From Phycisphaerales bacterium (GTDB lineage: Bacteria; Planctomycetota; Phycisphaerae; Phycisphaerales; UBA1924): a DNA stretch of 64,000 nt. A model generated the notes under the pieces. It ran no database searches and was not told where the DNA came from. It was given only the letters and a program-made list of their open reading frames with translations. The translations under genes and the position numbers were made by a program. The DNA is taken from the NCBI GenBank assembly GCA_029260295.1, contig JAJDDN010000003.1, positions 1 through 64,000 on the forward strand, given 5' to 3'. This document shows positions 25,996-47,590 of this stretch, piece by piece; within the stretch, counting starts at the first letter, position 1, and every line of letters begins with the position of its first letter.

Positions 25996-26472
25996 TCATT
26001 TCAACTCAAACCACGCCTCGGTACACGCCATAAACCGATCGCATGCTTCGGAAACATGCTCGCCGGTCTTCACGAATCCACACCGCTCAAGGGCCCGTAT
26101 CGAGCCAATATTCTCTGTCGCAACCCTCGCAAACATCGACCTTTGTTCAGCGATCTCCAGCATCACAGCGAGCGCCCGTGTCGCGATCCCCTTCCCCCAA
26201 TGCGTGCGGTCAATCCAGTACCCAACAAACCATTCCTCTTCGACCCGAAACACATTGATATTCCCCACGGCTTCGGAATCGAACACAATCGTGCGTGCGA
26301 TCACCGACGGATTCTTCAGAATACGATCCCAGTGTGCATCGAAATCTGCCCGCTCGCGTGGGTACACCTTTGCCAGTTCATACGCTTCAGTGTCCTGCTG
26401 ATGGTGAAAGAACACTACAAGATCACGCGGCAGGATTTCACGCAATCCGACTGAGCCTTGCCGATCAATCAC
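25996..26472 (-). CDS. GNAT family N-acetyltransferase (RimJ/RimL-like)
   Basis: LREILPRDL...GYWIDRTHWGKGIATRALAVMLEIA...IGSIRALERCGFVKTGEH; GTG start overlapping the stop of the upstream gene (GTGA). Confidence 0.88.
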   Translation of the reverse strand: MIDRQGSVGLREILPRDLVVFFHHQQDTEAYELAKVYPRERADFDAHWDRILKNPSVIARTIVFDSEAVGNINVFRVEEEWFVGYWIDRTHWGKGIATRALAVMLEIAEQRSMFARVATENIGSIRALERCGFVKTGEHVSEACDRFMACTEAWFELK

Positions 26473-27995
26473 GCCGCAGACACCGCTGAACCAGAAGGAA
26501 TGTTCATGGTCGGGATCATCGTCGCGATGGCCTTGATGACTTCCTGGCGAGAGGTTGAGGTTCGGGCATGGTCCAGTCGAGCGATAAGTTTGTCCATCGA
26601 GTCGATGAACCATGCGGAATCTTCGTTGAACCGTGCGATGCCTGGGTGGGCGGTCGCGGTGAGTTCCTCGGCGTCATAGCTGAGCTGCTCGTGCAGTTTT
26701 TCGCCCGGACGCGACCCCATCAAAATGATGGGCACTTGGTCTGGAGACTGCGACCCATTGGGAGCCCCGATCAAAGGCGAATACCCGCACGCGCGAACAA
26801 ACCGCTGGGCAAGTGTAAAGATGTTAATGGGCTCGCCCATATCTAGGACAAACACCTCGCCGCCACTTGTTGTATTTTGTCCGCTCATCGAACCGGCTTG
26901 CAACACCAGCGTTGCCGCTTCTGGGATGGTCATGAAATAGCGTGTCATGCGTTCGTCGGTGACGGTGATCGGGCGGCCTGCCGAGATCTGGTCCGCCCAG
27001 ATTTCAAGGACGCTGCACGCCGAGCCAAGGACATTACCGAACCGAACCATACTGAGTTTGGTTTCGCTGCCGACCATGTTTGTGACCTGAGCGGCAAGTG
27101 ACTGGGTGTACATCTCGGCGATGCGTTTGGTCGCGCCCATGACATTGACGGGATTGACCGCTTTGTCCGAAGAAATCAGCACGAAACGGTCCACGCCCGT
27201 CGCGACGCACGCGTCGGCGATTGCTTTGGTGCCGAAGACATTATTGGTGACCGCGTGGGCCGGATGGTCTTCCATCAAAGGCACATGCTTGTGAGCCGCG
27301 GCGTGAAGCACAACATCAGGACCCCACCGCTCAAGATGCGAGAGCGTCGTAGAAGCATCAACAACATCGTGCATAATCGCGACGCGTTCGATTTCTGGAT
27401 GGATCTCTTTGAGCCAGCGATCGACGCCGAAGAGGGCGTTTTCTGCTCGTTCCATCAGGATTATGCGTGACGGGCCAAAGCTGGCGATCTGCTTGACGAG
27501 TTCTGAGCCGATCGAGCCGCCGGCACCGGTAACGAGCACGCATTTGTCGGTGATGTTTTCGCCGACGAGATCGCGGTCGATGCTGTGGGCTTGGCGTCCG
27601 ACGAGCTTACCGAGGTCGATTCTGGCCGAGGGGAGTTGGACGCTCGCGCTGTGCCCCCCCCCCACGGATGGGGCGCTGTTGAGGAGTTCGTCCATCGGGG
27701 TCACGAAGCGTTCGATCACGCCCGAGCGTTGGAGTTCGGTGCTGATTGATCGCCATTGATCGCGGTGCGCGGCAGGGAGCGAGACGATTGCTTGGGAGAC
27801 GCTGGCCGCGCTGCAGATCTGGCCGAGGGCTTCGATGGAGCCCAGAACAGCGAGCCCATTGATCTCACGGATTCCCGGATCGGCGTCGATCAGAATCAGG
27901 CCAATCAGCTTTGGGGGGTCGGCGACCATCCCGACCTGCTTTGACAGTAAATCCGCGCTCTCGGGTGTTCCGATGATCAAGGTCCGTGTATTCAT
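26469..27995 (-). CDS. CapD-like nucleoside-diphosphate sugar epimerase/dehydratase
   Basis: CVLVTGAGGSIGSELVKQIASFGPSRIILMERAENALF...HAAAHKHVPLMEDHPAHAVTNNVFGTKAIAD...RMTRYFMTIPEAATLVLQAG...GEKLHEQL. Confidence 0.92.
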   Translation of the reverse strand: MNTRTLIIGTPESADLLSKQVGMVADPPKLIGLILIDADPGIREINGLAVLGSIEALGQICSAASVSQAIVSLPAAHRDQWRSISTELQRSGVIERFVTPMDELLNSAPSVGGGHSASVQLPSARIDLGKLVGRQAHSIDRDLVGENITDKCVLVTGAGGSIGSELVKQIASFGPSRIILMERAENALFGVDRWLKEIHPEIERVAIMHDVVDASTTLSHLERWGPDVVLHAAAHKHVPLMEDHPAHAVTNNVFGTKAIADACVATGVDRFVLISSDKAVNPVNVMGATKRIAEMYTQSLAAQVTNMVGSETKLSMVRFGNVLGSACSVLEIWADQISAGRPITVTDERMTRYFMTIPEAATLVLQAGSMSGQNTTSGGEVFVLDMGEPINIFTLAQRFVRACGYSPLIGAPNGSQSPDQVPIILMGSRPGEKLHEQLSYDAEELTATAHPGIARFNEDSAWFIDSMDKLIARLDHARTSTSRQEVIKAIATMIPTMNIPSGSAVSAA

Positions 27996-28084
27996 GCATG
28001 ATGTATCGACCAAGTCCGCCCATGAAAGCCACCAAATCACCCGTACCCACTACAGACCGGCCTGATCGCGTGTATGCTCATGAC

Positions 28085-40178: not shown

Positions 40179-40421
40179 ACTGCCTCTCATAAACAGCCTT
40201 CCTGCAAGCTCTTAAAGGCATCCCAAACCGTCCATTTCAGACGGCGAATTACGGGATTTTTTCAACCTGCCCACCTACTATTACTATCCCTGATACGAGC
40301 ATAAAAACCCCGTTCCATGGGCTCTGAATTCTGACTCAACTCCGCTGGCCAGATCGTGTTAAACACAACACGAGTTACGACCAAACGGAACGCAATGCTC
40401 GATGGACCAATCCCCACCATG

Positions 40422-43088
40422 ACCGACCAAAACACTCCATCGACACCACCCTCGACCGCCCCAAAGTCCGGCGAGTACTCCTCCGATCAGATCAAGGTCC
40501 TCGAAGGCCTCGAAGCCGTCCGCAAACGCCCAGGCATGTACATCGGCGGCACAGGCATCGGCGCACTCCACCACCTCGTCTACGAAGTCGTTGACAACTC
40601 CATCGACGAAGCCATGGCCGGCTTCGCAACCTATGTCTCCGTTGTCATCCAGCCCGACGGCTCCGTTAAAGTCTCCGACGACGGACGAGGCATCCCCACC
40701 GACCCCGTCAAGAACAGCGACGACCCCACAATCAACGGCAAGTCCGCCGTCGAAGTCGTCCTCACCAAACTCCACGCCGGCGGCAAGTTCCAGCAAGAAG
40801 ACTCCGCATACAAAGTCTCCGGCGGACTCCACGGCGTAGGCGTCTCCTGTGTCAACGCACTCTCCTCCCTCCTCGAAGTCGAAGTCTGGCGCGATGGCAA
40901 AATCAAAGGCATCGTCTTCGAACGAGGCGTCGTCACCAAAGACATCCACGACATCGGCCCCATCCCCGCAAACTCCGACATCGAAACAGGCACCATCGTC
41001 ACCTTCAAGCCCGACACCGAAATCTTCGAAGACATCAACTTCGTATACCAGACCCTCTCTACCCGTCTCCGCGAACTCTCGTTCCTCAACCCGGGCATCA
41101 CCATCAAGCTCACCGACGAACGCGTCGGTGCCGATGGCAAAATCAAGCACGAGATTTTCAAGGCTGAGAACGGGCTCCTCGAATATGTTACCTACCTGAT
41201 GAAGGGCAAGAATACCGTCTCCTCGACGGTCTACCTCAACAAAGAAGTCCCCGAGGACTCCATGATCTGCGAGGTCGCCCTCCAGTACCACGACGGGTAC
41301 AACGAAACACTCCTCACCTTCGCCAACAACATCAACAATGTCGACGGCGGCACCCACGGCCAAGGCTTCAAAACCGCACTCACACGCACGCTCAACGGCT
41401 ACGCCAAACGCGCCGGCATTCTCAAAGAGAAAGACACCAACCCATCGGGCGACGACCTCCGCGAAGGAATGATCGCTATCGTCTCGGTCAAACTCCCCGA
41501 CCCCCAGTTCAACAACCAGCCCAAAGAGAAGCTCCTCAACCCTGAGATCGAGAGCTTTGTCTCCTCGGCTCTCCAGGAAGCCCTCAACAACTGGCTCGAA
41601 GAACACCCCGCAGAAGCCAAGAAGCTCTGCCTCAAGGGCATCATGGCCGCCCAGGCGCGAGAGGCCGCACGCAAGGCCCGCGAGCTCACACGGCGTAAAT
41701 CCGCGCTCGACTCGGGCTCGATGCCCCACAAACTCCGCGACTGCAAAACCAAGGACATGGACCGCTCAGAAATCTTCATTGTCGAAGGTGATTCTGCGGG
41801 CGGCTCGGCGACCCAAGGCCGCGATGTCGAGACCCAAGCGATCCTGCCCCTCAAAGGTAAGATCCTCAATGTAGAGCGTGCCCGCATCGATAAGGTGCTG
41901 GGATTCGAAGAAATCCGTACCCTCATCGCTGCCCTCAAGTGCGGCATCGGCGCGGACTTTGACATCACCAAACTCCGCTACGGCAAGGTCATCATCATGA
42001 CCGATGCGGATGTTGACGGGTCCCACATCCGAACACTCCTCCTCACCTTCTTCTTCCGCCAGATGCCCGAGCTCATCCGTCGCGGCCATGTCTACATCGC
42101 CCAGCCCCCGCTCTACCAAATCACCCGAAACAAAAAATCCAAATATGTCCTCAACGAACGAACCCTCGACAACGCACTGACCGACCTTGGACTTGAGGGC
42201 TCTGTGCTGCAGGTCCGCGATATCGAAGACGCACAAGCTGGAATCGAACCAAGGGTTATCCAGTCCATCGCGGGCCCAGACGCCCGCCGTGCTGTCCAGC
42301 AGTTAACTCGACTCGCCGATCTCGTCGAGATCGCCGAACGCCGGGGCGTCAAGTTCCTCGACCTGTTAGAGACCCGCAAGGACAACAAGCTCCCGACCCA
42401 CAAACTCTCGACCCAGACCGAAGATGTCTATGCCTGGTCAGAATCCGAAGCCCTCGAACAACTCGAAGCCAAAAGTTGGCGATTGACGCAGGATGCTGCT
42501 GATATTGAAGAAACCGAAGCCGCAGATTCCACGCCCACGCTCGATCCGGATTCCCCGGAGTATGCCGAGCAGTTCAAGGAAGATTCATCTCCGCAAGCGA
42601 CCCTCCGCGAACTCCACGAGAACCGCGAACTAGACGCGATATTCTCCCAGCTCAACGAAATCGGCCTCAGCATCAATGACTACGGGCTCACCCAAGAAGA
42701 ATCCGTAACGGGTGAGAACATCCCCGCACGCTTCGCATGGGTCACGGAAAAAACATCGTCCGTCAAATCAGAGAATGAGTCCGCGATCCCAGCATCGCAG
42801 TCCAAGGTCGTCGAAGCCGCCAACATCCCATCGATCCTCGAAGCCCTCCATCAGATCGGGCGGCGGGGGATGGAGATCAAGCGGTTCAAGGGGCTGGGCG
42901 AGATGGACGCGATCCAGCTGTGGGACACGACCATGGATGTCACCCGGCGAACCCTCTTCCGGGTTCAGTGGGAGCACGCTTCTGAGGAAGCAAGCATGCT
43001 GTTCTCGTTGCTGATGGGCGAGCAGGTCGAACCAAGGCGGAAGTTCATCGAAGACCATGCGTTGGAAGTCAAGAACCTCGATGTCTAA
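40422..43088 (+). CDS. gyrB: DNA gyrase subunit B
   Basis: SSDQIKVLEGLEAVRKRPGMYIGGTGIGALHHLVYEVVDNSIDEAMAG, FIVEGDSAGGSATQGRDVETQAILPLKGKILNVERARIDKVL, MTDADVDGSHIRTLLLTFFFRQMPELI; start among in-frame ATGs uncertain. Confidence 0.97.
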   Translation, partial: TDQNTPSTPPSTAPKSGEYSSDQIKVLEGLEAVRKRPGMYIGGTGIGALHHLVYEVVDNSIDEAMAGFATYVSVVIQPDGSVKVSDDGRGIPTDPVKNSDDPTINGKSAVEVVLTKLHAGGKFQQEDSAYKVSGGLHGVGVSCVNALSSLLEVEVWRDGKIKGIVFERGVVTKDIHDIGPIPANSDIETGTIVTFKPDTEIFEDINFVYQTLSTRLRELSFLNPGITIKLTDERVGADGKIKHEIFKAENGLLEYVTYLMKGKNTVSSTVYLNKEVPEDSMICEVALQYHDGYNETLLTFANNINNVDGGTHGQGFKTALTRTLNGYAKRAGILKEKDTNPSGDDLREGMIAIVSVKLPDPQFNNQPKEKLLNPEIESFVSSALQEALNNWLEEHPAEAKKLCLKGIMAAQAREAARKARELTRRKSALDSGSMPHKLRDCKTKDMDRSEIFIVEGDSAGGSATQGRDVETQAILPLKGKILNVERARIDKVLGFEEIRTLIAALKCGIGADFDITKLRYGKVIIMTDADVDGSHIRTLLLTFFFRQMPELIRRGHVYIAQPPLYQITRNKKSKYVLNERTLDNALTDLGLEGSVLQVRDIEDAQAGIEPRVIQSIAGPDARRAVQQLTRLADLVEIAERRGVKFLDLLETRKDNKLPTHKLSTQTEDVYAWSESEALEQLEAKSWRLTQDAADIEETEAADSTPTLDPDSPEYAEQFKEDSSPQATLRELHENRELDAIFSQLNEIGLSINDYGLTQEESVTGENIPARFAWVTEKTSSVKSENESAIPASQSKVVEAANIPSILEALHQIGRRGMEIKRFKGLGEMDAIQLWDTTMDVTRRTLFRVQWEHASEEASMLFSLLMGEQVEPRRKFIEDHALEVKNLDV

Positions 43089-43315
43089 CTCAACTCCAAG
43101 CGGCCACAACCCCGTTTAACCTGCATTTACCACAATATTGACACCCCCCGCTGGTTCCTTTGGAATTATCGGTCTGCGCGATCCCGACTTCAACGCCAGA
43201 GCGTTATTGCACTGATTAACCACGCTCAATCCCCCGATATGAGAAGCACAGGAGTCTTCGATTCAGACTCGAAGCCCGATGTTTCATATGGCACCCTACT
43301 TACTAGGAACGATCA

Positions 43316-44449
43316 ATGGACCAAAGCAATTCCAACACACTCCGAATCGGCATCCGTGAGCTCAATGCTTTGCTGAATCGTATCGAGGAATCACAGCCTG
43401 AGAAAAAAAATCCAAACCGAGAGTTCGTTCGGTGGAACTTCCGAATCGTCCGGGCCGATCTTACAATTGAACACGCCACCGGATCGAAAGTCGTCCTTCC
43501 AGTCGCGACTCGGAATATTTCCAGAGGCGGGATCTCTGTTCTGCATTCGTCATTTGTATATCCGAACTCGCGTTGCCATGTCACCGCGATCCTTGAAGAC
43601 GGACGAAAGCTCGATATGGACGGGCTGGTCATGCGTTGCAACCACATCGGAGGGAAGGTTCACGAACTTGGTATCAAGTTTGATCAAGAGATCTCCACCA
43701 AAGAACTCCTCGGACTCGATCCGATGCAAGAGGCCTACTCGCTTGAATGCATCGAGCCAGACGGTCTGCACGGCACAGTCCTAATCGTTGCCTCTTCGGA
43801 ACTCGATCAGCAACTGCTTGTCAAACTCCTTGAAGACACCAGCCTAACAATTTCCGTCGCCGACAACTCTGAATCAGCTCTCAAACGAGCCCAGAAGGGG
43901 TGCGAACTTATCCTGACTGATTTTTCTGTTGGCGAAGAATCTGCTGCAGACATCCTCATGACACTCCGCGCTGAAGGGATCGATGCCCCTGTGCTTGTGA
44001 TGACATCTGATTCTTCTAGTGAGTTCCGTGATGAAATGCGGATGGCCGGTGCCTCCGGCTTGATCTCAAAGCCGTATACACGGGACAAACTTCTCCAGGC
44101 GCTCGCCGAGTTTCTCCTCGGAGACGGGGATGGTGGCCCGCTGTATTCGACACTTACAATATCCGATCCTGCGTACGAGATTCTTCCCAAGTTCCTTAAA
44201 GAACTCGCCAGGATGATTCTCACACTCGAAAAATCGCTCCGCGAATCTGATTATGATTCCTGCTTATCAATCTGCCAATCACTCGCCAACTCCGCGGCTC
44301 CTTTGGGGTATGAATCCATCGGGCATATCGCAGCCCAAGCAAACCGCGCCCTATCCAAGGGCAGCGGTGTCAGAGATGCTGCGGCAGATGTTCGACAGTT
44401 AATTATCGCGTGCCGTCGTATTAAAGCCAATCCGAAGGCCGCCGCATAG
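43316..44449 (+). CDS. PilZ domain + response-regulator receiver-like protein
   Basis: PilZ motifs RWNFR (RxxxR) and NISRGG (NxSxxG); receiver-like VLIVASS...LILTDFSVGE...VLVMTSDS...SGLISKPYTRDKL. Confidence 0.85.
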   Translation: MDQSNSNTLRIGIRELNALLNRIEESQPEKKNPNREFVRWNFRIVRADLTIEHATGSKVVLPVATRNISRGGISVLHSSFVYPNSRCHVTAILEDGRKLDMDGLVMRCNHIGGKVHELGIKFDQEISTKELLGLDPMQEAYSLECIEPDGLHGTVLIVASSELDQQLLVKLLEDTSLTISVADNSESALKRAQKGCELILTDFSVGEESAADILMTLRAEGIDAPVLVMTSDSSSEFRDEMRMAGASGLISKPYTRDKLLQALAEFLLGDGDGGPLYSTLTISDPAYEILPKFLKELARMILTLEKSLRESDYDSCLSICQSLANSAAPLGYESIGHIAAQANRALSKGSGVRDAAADVRQLIIACRRIKANPKAAA

Positions 44450-44483
44450 ATCCATTTATTTCATTATCGCAATTACCTGAAAC

Positions 44484-45644
44484 TTGAGATCATTTATGGC
44501 CAGTAACCCAATCCTCAACCCAGCGTCCGACCCAACGATCCGCAATAGCCTCTTGCTCGATGGGATCCTCTATCAACGGATTCTTTCAAAGCTCGATGAA
44601 TCCGGACGGAAACAAAATCCGAGCCCGGAGCGGATCTTCCGAAGACTTTCTTACGCTCACGCAAAGATCGCGGTCAACATCGAATCTGAGGGCCACAACC
44701 AGCGAACCCTGATTGTGGCGACCCGGAATCTCTCTCAGGGGGGAATCTCAATTCTCCACTCGAGCTTTATGTACACCGGCACGCAGGTCACTGTAGATCT
44801 CATCACCAACACCGGTACCACCACCCCTTGTCATGGATCCGTAACCCGTTGCGAACACCGGGGCGGACGCGTTCACGAGATTGGTATCAAGTTCGATGAC
44901 GAGATCGTGCTGCGAGAGTATCTAAATCCAAACCCCAAGAGCCTGCTTTATTCTCGAGAGAAAGTAGATCATGAAGGCATGGACATCAAGCTTCTTGTCG
45001 TTTCTCCAAACACTGATTTCTCGTCGATCATGAGACAGTTTCTTCAACCAACCAGCATGGTTTACAAGTTTGTCAAGTCGGATGCCGAAGCAATGGATCT
45101 CTTCAAGGCACAAGACATGGTCTTGCTCCAGTTAGACAAGCTCACAATGGAGACTCCTAAGACAGTCCTCAAAATGCGCGACCAAGGATTCACGAATCCA
45201 ATCATTATCGCCGGCCGCCCCGCGAGCGAGATCGATACCCATGTCGTTGGCGCATGCGGTGCTGATATGATCCTGCCTTGGCCTTGCGATGAGCAAACCA
45301 TGCTCTGCTCGATCGGGGAGTATATTTTCAACCCATGGACTGCGGAGTCACTGGAGAATATCCGGTCGTGTATTTCGCCTGAGACTCGCCGTGTGTTGTT
45401 TGTTGAGCTCTCCAAGATCGGGATTACGCTCGATCAGTATGTCCGCACAAACAACCAGGAGGGTGCCCACACATCGTGCTCCCAGATCCGAATGATTGCC
45501 CCGCTTCTCAATTTAGTCGCTCTCAAATCAGCGATTAATGAGCTCACCGAGCGGGTTGCGACCGCGGACTCGCTTGAATCGCTCGCCCCTGAACTCAGTC
45601 AAATTTCACTCGCATGCAAAGGGATGAACCAGAAAGCCGCGTAA
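44484..45644 (+). CDS. PilZ domain + degenerate receiver-like protein, paralog of the preceding gene
   Basis: RIFRR...NLSQGG PilZ motifs; co-linear with 43316-44449; receiver-like half IKLLVVSPNTDFSSIM...MVLLQLDKL...PIIIAGRP...ADMILPWPCDEQ. Confidence 0.82.
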   Translation: MRSFMASNPILNPASDPTIRNSLLLDGILYQRILSKLDESGRKQNPSPERIFRRLSYAHAKIAVNIESEGHNQRTLIVATRNLSQGGISILHSSFMYTGTQVTVDLITNTGTTTPCHGSVTRCEHRGGRVHEIGIKFDDEIVLREYLNPNPKSLLYSREKVDHEGMDIKLLVVSPNTDFSSIMRQFLQPTSMVYKFVKSDAEAMDLFKAQDMVLLQLDKLTMETPKTVLKMRDQGFTNPIIIAGRPASEIDTHVVGACGADMILPWPCDEQTMLCSIGEYIFNPWTAESLENIRSCISPETRRVLFVELSKIGITLDQYVRTNNQEGAHTSCSQIRMIAPLLNLVALKSAINELTERVATADSLESLAPELSQISLACKGMNQKAA

Positions 45645-45664
45645 CTTTTGGGTACTAGCTCACT

Positions 45665-47590
45665 ATGAATGACCGTTCAACTCATCACAGAATTCTTCGC
45701 CTCGTCAAGGCTGTTGGGGTATGGACCAGCGGTTGTTTGGTACTCAGCGCAGTCATCCTTGCGGTCTCGTATGTTCGCGTAGGATCAATCATTAATACGG
45801 AAGCTGTTGAACTTGTAGAACTTTCTGCCCATCAACAAATGCTTACTGAGAAGTTGACCAAGGGCGCTCTTCAGATCAAGGTTGCCATCAGCTCGGACGA
45901 CTGGAAAACTGTCGAATCGTCGCTCGGTCAGATTGCGATCGACCATCGAACTTGGGATGAGATTCACCAGACGCTCCGTAACAATCGGCACAACTCGTTT
46001 AGCGGAGAAAATGATTCACACACTATTCAGGAATACTTCGACCGGATTCACTATCCACATACTCAAGTTTCTCAAGCGATCGACGAAATCGAGCTTGTAG
46101 GCCGCAGCATTGTCCGCCGTGCCCCTTACATTGATCAGGCAACACACGATCGGATGATCGTAGCGACTGGTCTAGTCATCGAGCAGGAGCCCGCATACCT
46201 CCAGAGCATGAACGAGATCGTCTCACTCTATGTGCTCTATGCTTCGAAAAACTCGACCCAGGCGGTCGCTTCGGTCCGCAGTTCGCTCTGGTTGCTACTG
46301 GCGACTCTGAGCATCGCGTTCATAATCGGCGTGGTCCCTCGATACTGGCTTTTGGCCTCCAAATCCGTCAGGCTCGAGGAGAGTTTAACCCGGGCCAATG
46401 AAGCCGTGAGTTCCCGCTGGCATTTCCTGGCATCGCTGGGGCATGAGTTCCGGACCCCAATGAACTCGATCATGGGATTCGCGGGATTGCTAGCCAACGA
46501 AGACCAAGACAAAGCCACTAAAGAAGAACACGCCAAAATGATCCTTGGATCTGGGAGCGGGCTCATGTCGCTGATTGAGGACATCATCGATATGTCCGCT
46601 ATCGAAGCGGGCGGGCTCAAGGTCTCGCCATGCGTGACAGCCCCCCGCCAAATCATTGAAAAGCTTGAGAGCACATTCACTCCACTCGCTCAAGAAAGAG
46701 GCCTGGAGTTCAATGTGTTTATCGACAACACATGCCCGGCCTCAATTACCACCGACGAGGTGCGACTCAAGCATGTCATTTCAAAGATCGTCGAGAACGC
46801 TCTCAAGTTCACCAAGGCAGGGTCTGTAGAACTGCATGCCGCTCTTGAAGAAATCAGCGGGAAGAATATGTTTGTTATCCGAGTTGTTGATACCGGGATC
46901 GGTATTGATTTCAATGATGTAAGCAGGATGTTCGAGCCTTTCGAGCGAATCGAGAACGGGATGAATCGAGAGCATGACGGGGCGGGACTCGGACTCACGG
47001 TGGCCCGTGCATTGGCTTGCCAACTCGGTGGTGATATCACGATCGAGACCGCGAAGGGCGCGGGGAGCTTTGTCACCATCTCGGTGGATCCGGGCCAATA
47101 CATTGTTCAATCCGAATCAGGGCCTGTGACAACCAAGAAAGAAATCGTTGCAGATTTAGAGGTTCTCGAATCGAAACTGGTATTACTCATCGAAGATGGG
47201 AAGGACAATCAGCGATTGATCTCTCACCACCTCACCAAGGCTGGGTGCATGATCCAGCTTGCCGAGAACGGGCAGATTGGTATCGATCGGTATATGGCCG
47301 CAGAGGGATCGGAGAAGCCAATCGATATCATCCTCATGGATATGCAGATGCCCGTTATGGACGGGTTCGAAGCGACCTCCATCCTTCGAAAGCACGGAGC
47401 CAAAATCCCGATCATCGGGGTCACCGCGCACTCATCGGCAGATGATCGCACCCGGTGCTTAGAAGCGGGATGCGATGAATTCCTGACCAAGCCTATCAGC
47501 AAATCTCTTCTGCTCGACACCTGTGCAATATGGATTTCTAGGCATGATGCAACCGAATCCGATGAACTTCAGCCGTCCCAGGCCGCGTAA
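45665..47590 (+). CDS. Hybrid sensor histidine kinase with PilJ-like sensor and C-terminal receiver
   Basis: VELSAHQQMLTEKLTK (PilJ_N-like), SLGHEFRTPMNSIMGFAGLL (HisKA), DTGIGIDFNDVSRMFEPFERI...GAGLGLTVARAL (HATPase), VLLIEDGKDNQ...IILMDMQMPVMDGFEA...TKPIS (REC). Confidence 0.95.
   Translation: MNDRSTHHRILRLVKAVGVWTSGCLVLSAVILAVSYVRVGSIINTEAVELVELSAHQQMLTEKLTKGALQIKVAISSDDWKTVESSLGQIAIDHRTWDEIHQTLRNNRHNSFSGENDSHTIQEYFDRIHYPHTQVSQAIDEIELVGRSIVRRAPYIDQATHDRMIVATGLVIEQEPAYLQSMNEIVSLYVLYASKNSTQAVASVRSSLWLLLATLSIAFIIGVVPRYWLLASKSVRLEESLTRANEAVSSRWHFLASLGHEFRTPMNSIMGFAGLLANEDQDKATKEEHAKMILGSGSGLMSLIEDIIDMSAIEAGGLKVSPCVTAPRQIIEKLESTFTPLAQERGLEFNVFIDNTCPASITTDEVRLKHVISKIVENALKFTKAGSVELHAALEEISGKNMFVIRVVDTGIGIDFNDVSRMFEPFERIENGMNREHDGAGLGLTVARALACQLGGDITIETAKGAGSFVTISVDPGQYIVQSESGPVTTKKEIVADLEVLESKLVLLIEDGKDNQRLISHHLTKAGCMIQLAENGQIGIDRYMAAEGSEKPIDIILMDMQMPVMDGFEATSILRKHGAKIPIIGVTAHSSADDRTRCLEAGCDEFLTKPISKSLLLDTCAIWISRHDATESDELQPSQAA

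Follow-up and report, generated by a model that had tools for sequence, protein, structure and literature searches.

A three-gene signalling operon in Phycisphaerales

The stretch of DNA analysed here (the window) comprises 64,000 nucleotides of a Phycisphaerales bacterium (Planctomycetota; GenBank assembly GCA_029260295.1, contig JAJDDN010000003.1, positions 1 to 64,000). Between positions 43316 and 47590 it carries three genes on the same (+) strand, here called A, B and C, whose number, strand and coordinates agree with an initial annotation made from the sequence alone. Gene A (43316..44449) encodes a protein of 377 amino acids (aa) in which a PilZ domain is followed by a (pseudo)receiver and a pseudo-HPt domain, and which ends in PKAAA; gene B (44496..45644) encodes a paralogue of A with 382 aa, and gene C (45665..47590) a membrane hybrid histidine kinase with 641 aa. 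The initial annotation had suggested that these proteins form a module in which a phosphorelay is integrated with signalling by the second messenger cyclic di-GMP (c-di-GMP). What it had missed is that all three proteins share a C-terminal Ala-Ala (-AA), which is conserved in the genus and also found on other motility and signalling proteins of this bacterium.

Within the genus, A–B–C is a co-conserved c-di-GMP/two-component operon, with the order gyrB–A–(B)–(C)–PEPCK in most members. The initial annotation had made its proposal depend on such co-conservation, which holds inside the genus but not outside it, where A occurs without C (beside gyrB in eight other genera of the family). In genome G006 (locus L075) A is gone, with B and C kept, and in G018 (L072) B is gone, with A and C kept. 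Related loci in a second collection, found by a search with a 14-member alignment, are from metagenome-assembled genomes mostly labelled Phycisphaerales; these are the same genomes and do not count as independent evidence.

A C-terminal Ala-Ala on A, B, C and other signalling proteins

The -AA of A (44441..44446) is present in 18 of 19 genus orthologues, that of B (45636..45641) in 16 of 18 and that of C (47582..47587) in all 19, including four in which C consists of the sensor alone and three in which it has no phosphorylatable His. Where the dipeptide is missing, one A ends in -VA and two B proteins end in -CA. In B and C the preceding residues (positions -3 to -12) vary, and the Ala residues are encoded by each of the four possible codons (GCC 39, GCG 25, GCA 19 and GCT 17 times), so that selection acts at the level of the protein. 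The background frequency of this ending is 1–2% overall: it occurs in 13 of 688 open reading frames (ORFs) in 860 kb of the same genome (10/685 when A, B and C, which are among the 13, are not counted), in 3/124 neighbouring conserved genes, in 3/152 ORFs beside motA and in 8/551 ORFs beside A-like genes. Chance was considered as the origin of the shared ending and was rejected by these counts together with the codon variation.

Other copies of the A/B type differ in their ends. The genome from which the window derives has a third, isolated copy (C7:401969) that ends in -AI, and it encodes at least four PilZ proteins, the family search on which this number is based having overlooked A and B. 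Genome G010 (L063, 193–1053) has an extra, shortened copy of A directly before A, which has no HPt-like tail and ends in -SA, and G021, a member of another genus, has three tandem A-like PilZ–receiver–HPt-like genes (L047, 7099–10733), with -AA on the last one only.

Beyond the operon, 23 of 1323 ORFs end in -AA in the 1.66 Mb surveyed, i.e. in about 57% of the window's genome. When signalling proteins are assigned with small purpose-built hidden Markov models (HMMs), this ending is found on 11 of 27 proteins with two-component, c-di-GMP or chemoreceptor domains versus 12 of 1296 others (p=2.9e-14), and still on 8 of 24 versus the same 12 of 1296 when A, B and C are left out (Fisher p=3.6e-10). 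These eight comprise two GGDEF–EAL proteins, two HD-GYP proteins, one MCP-like receptor, two hybrid-kinase ORFs and one further HATPase protein. Among the twelve ‘others’ are a PilZ–DnaJ protein and the flagellar stator protein MotA, both recognized by Pfam, as well as an HDOD–GGDEF protein recognized by reading. In the surveyed part of the genome, -AA is lacking from classical kinase–regulator pairs. At the relatives' loci no other signalling genes were found, which left the enrichment test there empty.

For two of these proteins the ending could be followed further. MotA ends in -AA in 19/19 members of the genus and in 28/29 members of other genera and families of the order (47/48), and the GGDEF–EAL family does so in 13/13 cases; MotA of E. 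coli ends in -EEA. The MotA tails in front of -AA (L182, 5075–5893 on the (-) strand; L209–L256) differ in length and sequence. The PilZ–DnaJ fusion (L162; G000 C2:193069–195105, (-) strand; Pfam 1.1e-8 and 2.2e-16), which ends in -AAA, joins a c-di-GMP domain to a chaperone domain, an unusual pairing. Within the window, a nucleotide-sugar dehydratase/epimerase-like ORF (26469–28040, (-) strand), probably involved in polysaccharide synthesis, also ends in -AA (SAVSAA).

Domain architecture of the operon and the phosphorelay question

The trio is preceded by gyrB (40356–43088) and followed by tRNA-His and then by a PEPCK-like gene. Intergenic gaps of 20–34 base pairs (bp) had been noted; the 20 bp between B and C stand, but the gap between A and B is 34 bp only if B starts at TTG 44484 and becomes 46 bp with ATG 44496, which is the likelier start because the orthologues align from there. 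Profiles of A and B align end to end (24% identity, E 5e-61), and the two are therefore diverged tandem paralogues. A sigma-54-like site, TGGCACCCTACTTAC at 43289, shortly before A, was dropped; it is not conserved upstream of A at 18 other loci.

Both PilZ domains exceed the Pfam cut-off of 22.5 bits (PF07238): that of A (aa 34–129; 43415..43702) reaches 29.1 bits (1.3e-6) with the motifs RWNFR and NISRGG, and that of B (aa 54–135; 44655..44900) 26.1 bits (1.1e-5) with RIFRR and NLSQGG. The presence of RxxxR together with NxSxxG, as originally reported, extends to 18/19 A and 18/18 B proteins (36/37 genus sequences), and these motifs imply that A and B would bind c-di-GMP.

The domain following PilZ, previously described as receiver-like, is indeed of the receiver fold in A (aa 155–263; 43778..44104), with a Pfam match of 5.6e-14 and a template modelling (TM) score of 0.90 to CheY4, and the initial proposal thus does not fail on this point. 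For the pseudo-receiver of B (aa 167–270; 44994..45305) the Pfam match is only 0.079, and the assignment is supported by orthologues, the best of which matches at 9.4e-8. A phosphorylatable receiver (PF00072) has an acidic pair, Asp, Thr/Ser and Lys, and neither A nor B has the complete set. According to the alignment, A has D202 and K252, the former being present in nearly all and the latter in all of its genus orthologues, with the acidic pair replaced by A159/S160 (TS, TP and similar replacements in other genus members); in B the acidic pair, Asp and Lys are all gone. Complete sites occur in a few distant members (L036, L044, L046, L050 and L051), and therefore the ancestral receiver was probably phosphorylatable.

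The C-terminal part of A, which had been regarded as a helical tail of about 100 aa, is by sequence an HPt domain without the phosphorylatable His (aa 288–370; 44177..44425). Of 25 A-type proteins, 22 are recognized by Pfam Hpt (PF01627), the strongest match being 5.1e-7; A itself matches at 1.8e-4 with 22.1 bits, slightly below the curated cut-off of 24.6. A profile built from 25 such tails retrieves HPt domains of known structure (3myf at 4.6e-9, 8rqj at 2.1e-7 and LuxU at 6.2e-6), and the AlphaFold model of the tail consists, with good confidence, of four helices (285–309, 313–326, 333–348 and 352–366). At the phospho-His site A has Gln321 (44276–44278), and the His is absent from all aligned members, be they of the genus, the family or the order. 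The corresponding tail of B (about aa 290–375; 45363..45620), likewise without His, has no Pfam match of its own and is assigned by profile alignment to A. That no HPt domain is encoded nearby, as the initial annotation had it, is thus incorrect with respect to fold and correct with respect to function.

In C, the HisKA and HATPase_c domains (46424..47089; Pfam 2.5e-13 and 3.7e-23; H260 at 46442) and the receiver (47180..47518; 6.2e-25; D559 and K609) are well above cut-off, and the HisKA His, the ATP-binding boxes and the receiver Asp and Lys are all present as annotated, although 7 of 19 orthologues do not have this kinase set. C is intact in 12 genomes of the genus, without phospho-His in three (L059, L073 and L075), represented by its sensor alone in four (L063, L064, L071 and L074) and absent in one (L058). 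The sensor (45716..46354) is predicted to have a periplasmic helical bundle of the PilJ class flanked by two membrane helices. Pfam PilJ (PF13675) does not match the sensor in the window; it does match 6 of 16 orthologous sensors (best 3.4e-10), which favours the PilJ_N-like character originally noted. A model of the sensor shows five long helices (predicted local distance difference test score 83.5), for which Foldseek returned weak matches only, including NarQ and MCP ligand-binding domains.

Does C pass phosphate to the receiver that it carries and from there on to A (and B), such that PilZ output is gated by phosphate and c-di-GMP together? The intact kinase and receiver of C, the retention of D202 and K252 in A, the complete receiver sites of the distant members and the conserved gene order would all fit such a relay. 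It is contradicted, however, because residues are missing (the metal-binding acidic pair in A, in addition the Asp and Lys in B, and the HPt His in every member) and because some genomes have lost the kinase: one or both of A and B are still encoded in genomes whose C is no functional kinase, being either His-less or reduced to its sensor. While the co-conserved operon of the initial proposal stands within the genus, a kinase-to-PilZ phosphorelay is therefore poorly supported, and we consider an active relay unlikely.

One might then regard the locus as an unremarkable operon in which two-component paralogues are decaying without any particular function and -AA is an inherited accident. The degenerate receivers and HPt domains, the truncations of C and the loss of one gene each in G006 (A) and G018 (B) are what such decay would look like, but the PilZ motifs are retained, and -AA recurs on proteins that are unrelated, differ in the preceding tail and use different codons for it. 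This explanation thus appears highly improbable.

A candidate ssrA-like degron

The tmRNA of this bacterium (L092, 1501–1852; G000 C7:150527–150881) encodes the tag peptide AKPQYALAA, and ClpX is present in the same genome (564 bits). A, B and C all have the conserved nonpolar C-terminal -AA dipeptide that characterizes substrates with an ssrA-like ClpXP degron. In E. coli, the ALAA end binds to the pore of ClpX and is essential for adaptor-free degradation by ClpXP in vitro (PMC8512704). With a somewhat better than even chance in our estimate, A–B–C may therefore be a c-di-GMP effector module that belongs to a set of proteins of the motility programme carrying a ClpXP-type degron. We infer from sequence the role of -AA as a degron as well as the identity of the protease, the timing of degradation and any physical interactions.

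In this scenario, C would sense a periplasmic or membrane signal and A and B would bind c-di-GMP via their PilZ domains, with the receiver and HPt-like domains of A and B serving mainly as protein-interaction and conformational modules rather than as phosphate carriers. All three proteins would be made as ssrA-like substrates, whose -AA allows ClpXP, or a protease of similar taste, to clear them together with MotA, the MCP-like receptor, further hybrid kinases and the GGDEF–EAL and HD-GYP proteins; this would probably happen when cells switch from swimming to sessile life or at a cell-cycle transition.

The same conservation of -AA, and the functional links between its carriers, would also be expected if the dipeptide were a shared binding motif through which they are brought together, for instance via a polar hub, an adaptor or a PDZ-type protein, and are not degraded. 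No candidate for such a hub was found, and since the ssrA-type tag of this species has identical terminal residues, tails of this kind would risk proteolysis, which makes a pure binding motif quite improbable. A closer relative of our preferred interpretation is a degron read by FtsH or another ATP-dependent protease, chiefly on the membrane proteins C, MotA and GGDEF–EAL. Several proteases accept nonpolar C-termini and ssrA tags, and several -AA carriers are indeed membrane proteins; moreover, degradation of eGFP-ALAA was independent of the ClpXP factors tested (PMC8512704). Yet A and B, which are soluble by sequence, carry the same tail, and ClpX is present, so that we regard this variant as unlikely.

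Several points weigh against a ClpXP-type degron as the common denominator. The residue preceding -AA is often charged or a Pro and not the Leu of the ssrA tag, and ClpX requires an accessible tail and often an adaptor as well. For the membrane proteins MotA and C, FtsH is as plausible as ClpXP. C in the window has an intact kinase and receiver, and therefore phosphotransfer somewhere is likely. Finally, the enrichment among signalling proteins was counted over about 57% of the genome with small purpose-built HMMs, and proteome-scale scoring of -AA stayed within the order.

The detailed knowledge of regulated proteolysis of motility and c-di-GMP proteins comes mainly from Caulobacter and its relatives, and our literature searches on PilZ and on ClpXP in Planctomycetes found nothing relevant. 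If the degron interpretation is true, a signal readable from sequence across an order of another phylum would allow probable substrates of a developmental switch to be listed, and in these mostly uncultured bacteria the degron question is directly testable. In addition, members of the A/B family have long kept receiver and HPt domains that lack their phosphorylation chemistry, which makes this family a natural case for studying other roles of such domains.

Comparison with known systems

A close likeness to A and B is PixA of Myxococcus xanthus, which has an N-terminal PilZ domain with c-di-GMP motifs followed by a receiver, binds c-di-GMP in vitro and regulates motility (PMC8316039). PixA, however, is described as PilZ plus receiver only, with a complete receiver site and no adjacent kinase gene. 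In A and B, by contrast, the receivers are degenerate, the tail is an HPt domain lacking its His, and a kinase gene adjoins. With other pseudo-HPt and pseudo-receiver domains they share a retained fold from which the phosphorylation residues have gone; yet only about 0.9% of the HPt domains sampled in a survey are His-less (PMC12632262), in contrast to every member of the order-wide family described here. C resembles PilJ-class sensors (PF13675) in its predicted helical-bundle sensor with two transmembrane helices and in a GRMRMLSQR-type motif found in several orthologues, but its sensor in the window has drifted below detection, and some orthologues consist of the sensor alone.

For the putative degron, the obvious reference is the cell cycle of Caulobacter, during which ClpXP removes PleC, CckN, the GGDEF–EAL protein PdeA, McpA, McpB, TipF and FliF (PMC8973945), TacA and ShkA are marked for degradation by a C-terminal Ala-Gly (PMC7010744) and PopA acts as a c-di-GMP-dependent ClpXP adaptor (PMC10212136). 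The kinds of protein removed there, namely kinases, a GGDEF–EAL protein, chemoreceptors and flagellar proteins, are also the kinds that end in -AA here. A receiver–GGDEF protein in our survey (L164; G000 C8:4361–5314) ends in -KAG, which resembles this Ala-Gly signal. The Caulobacter set acting at the G1–S transition (CtrA, TacA, ShkA, PdeA, McpA, CpdR and PopA; PMC8973945, PMC7010744, PMC10212136) likewise consists of two-component, c-di-GMP and chemotaxis proteins with a C-terminal Ala-type signal, and c-di-GMP effectors work in the same pathway. It differs in that it belongs to another phylum, that MotA is absent from the substrate table consulted and that the PilZ–receiver–pseudo-HPt architecture is not part of it. 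It is a tentative and bolder possibility that Phycisphaerales have independently evolved a Caulobacter-like destruction programme, with an -AA degron on MotA, c-di-GMP enzymes, A, B and sensor kinases, in which A or B would, as a matter of speculation, be a c-di-GMP-controlled protease adaptor similar to PopA. If these tails do direct degradation, the simplest reading is that the use of such a degron in this order is independent of, and convergent with, that in Caulobacter.

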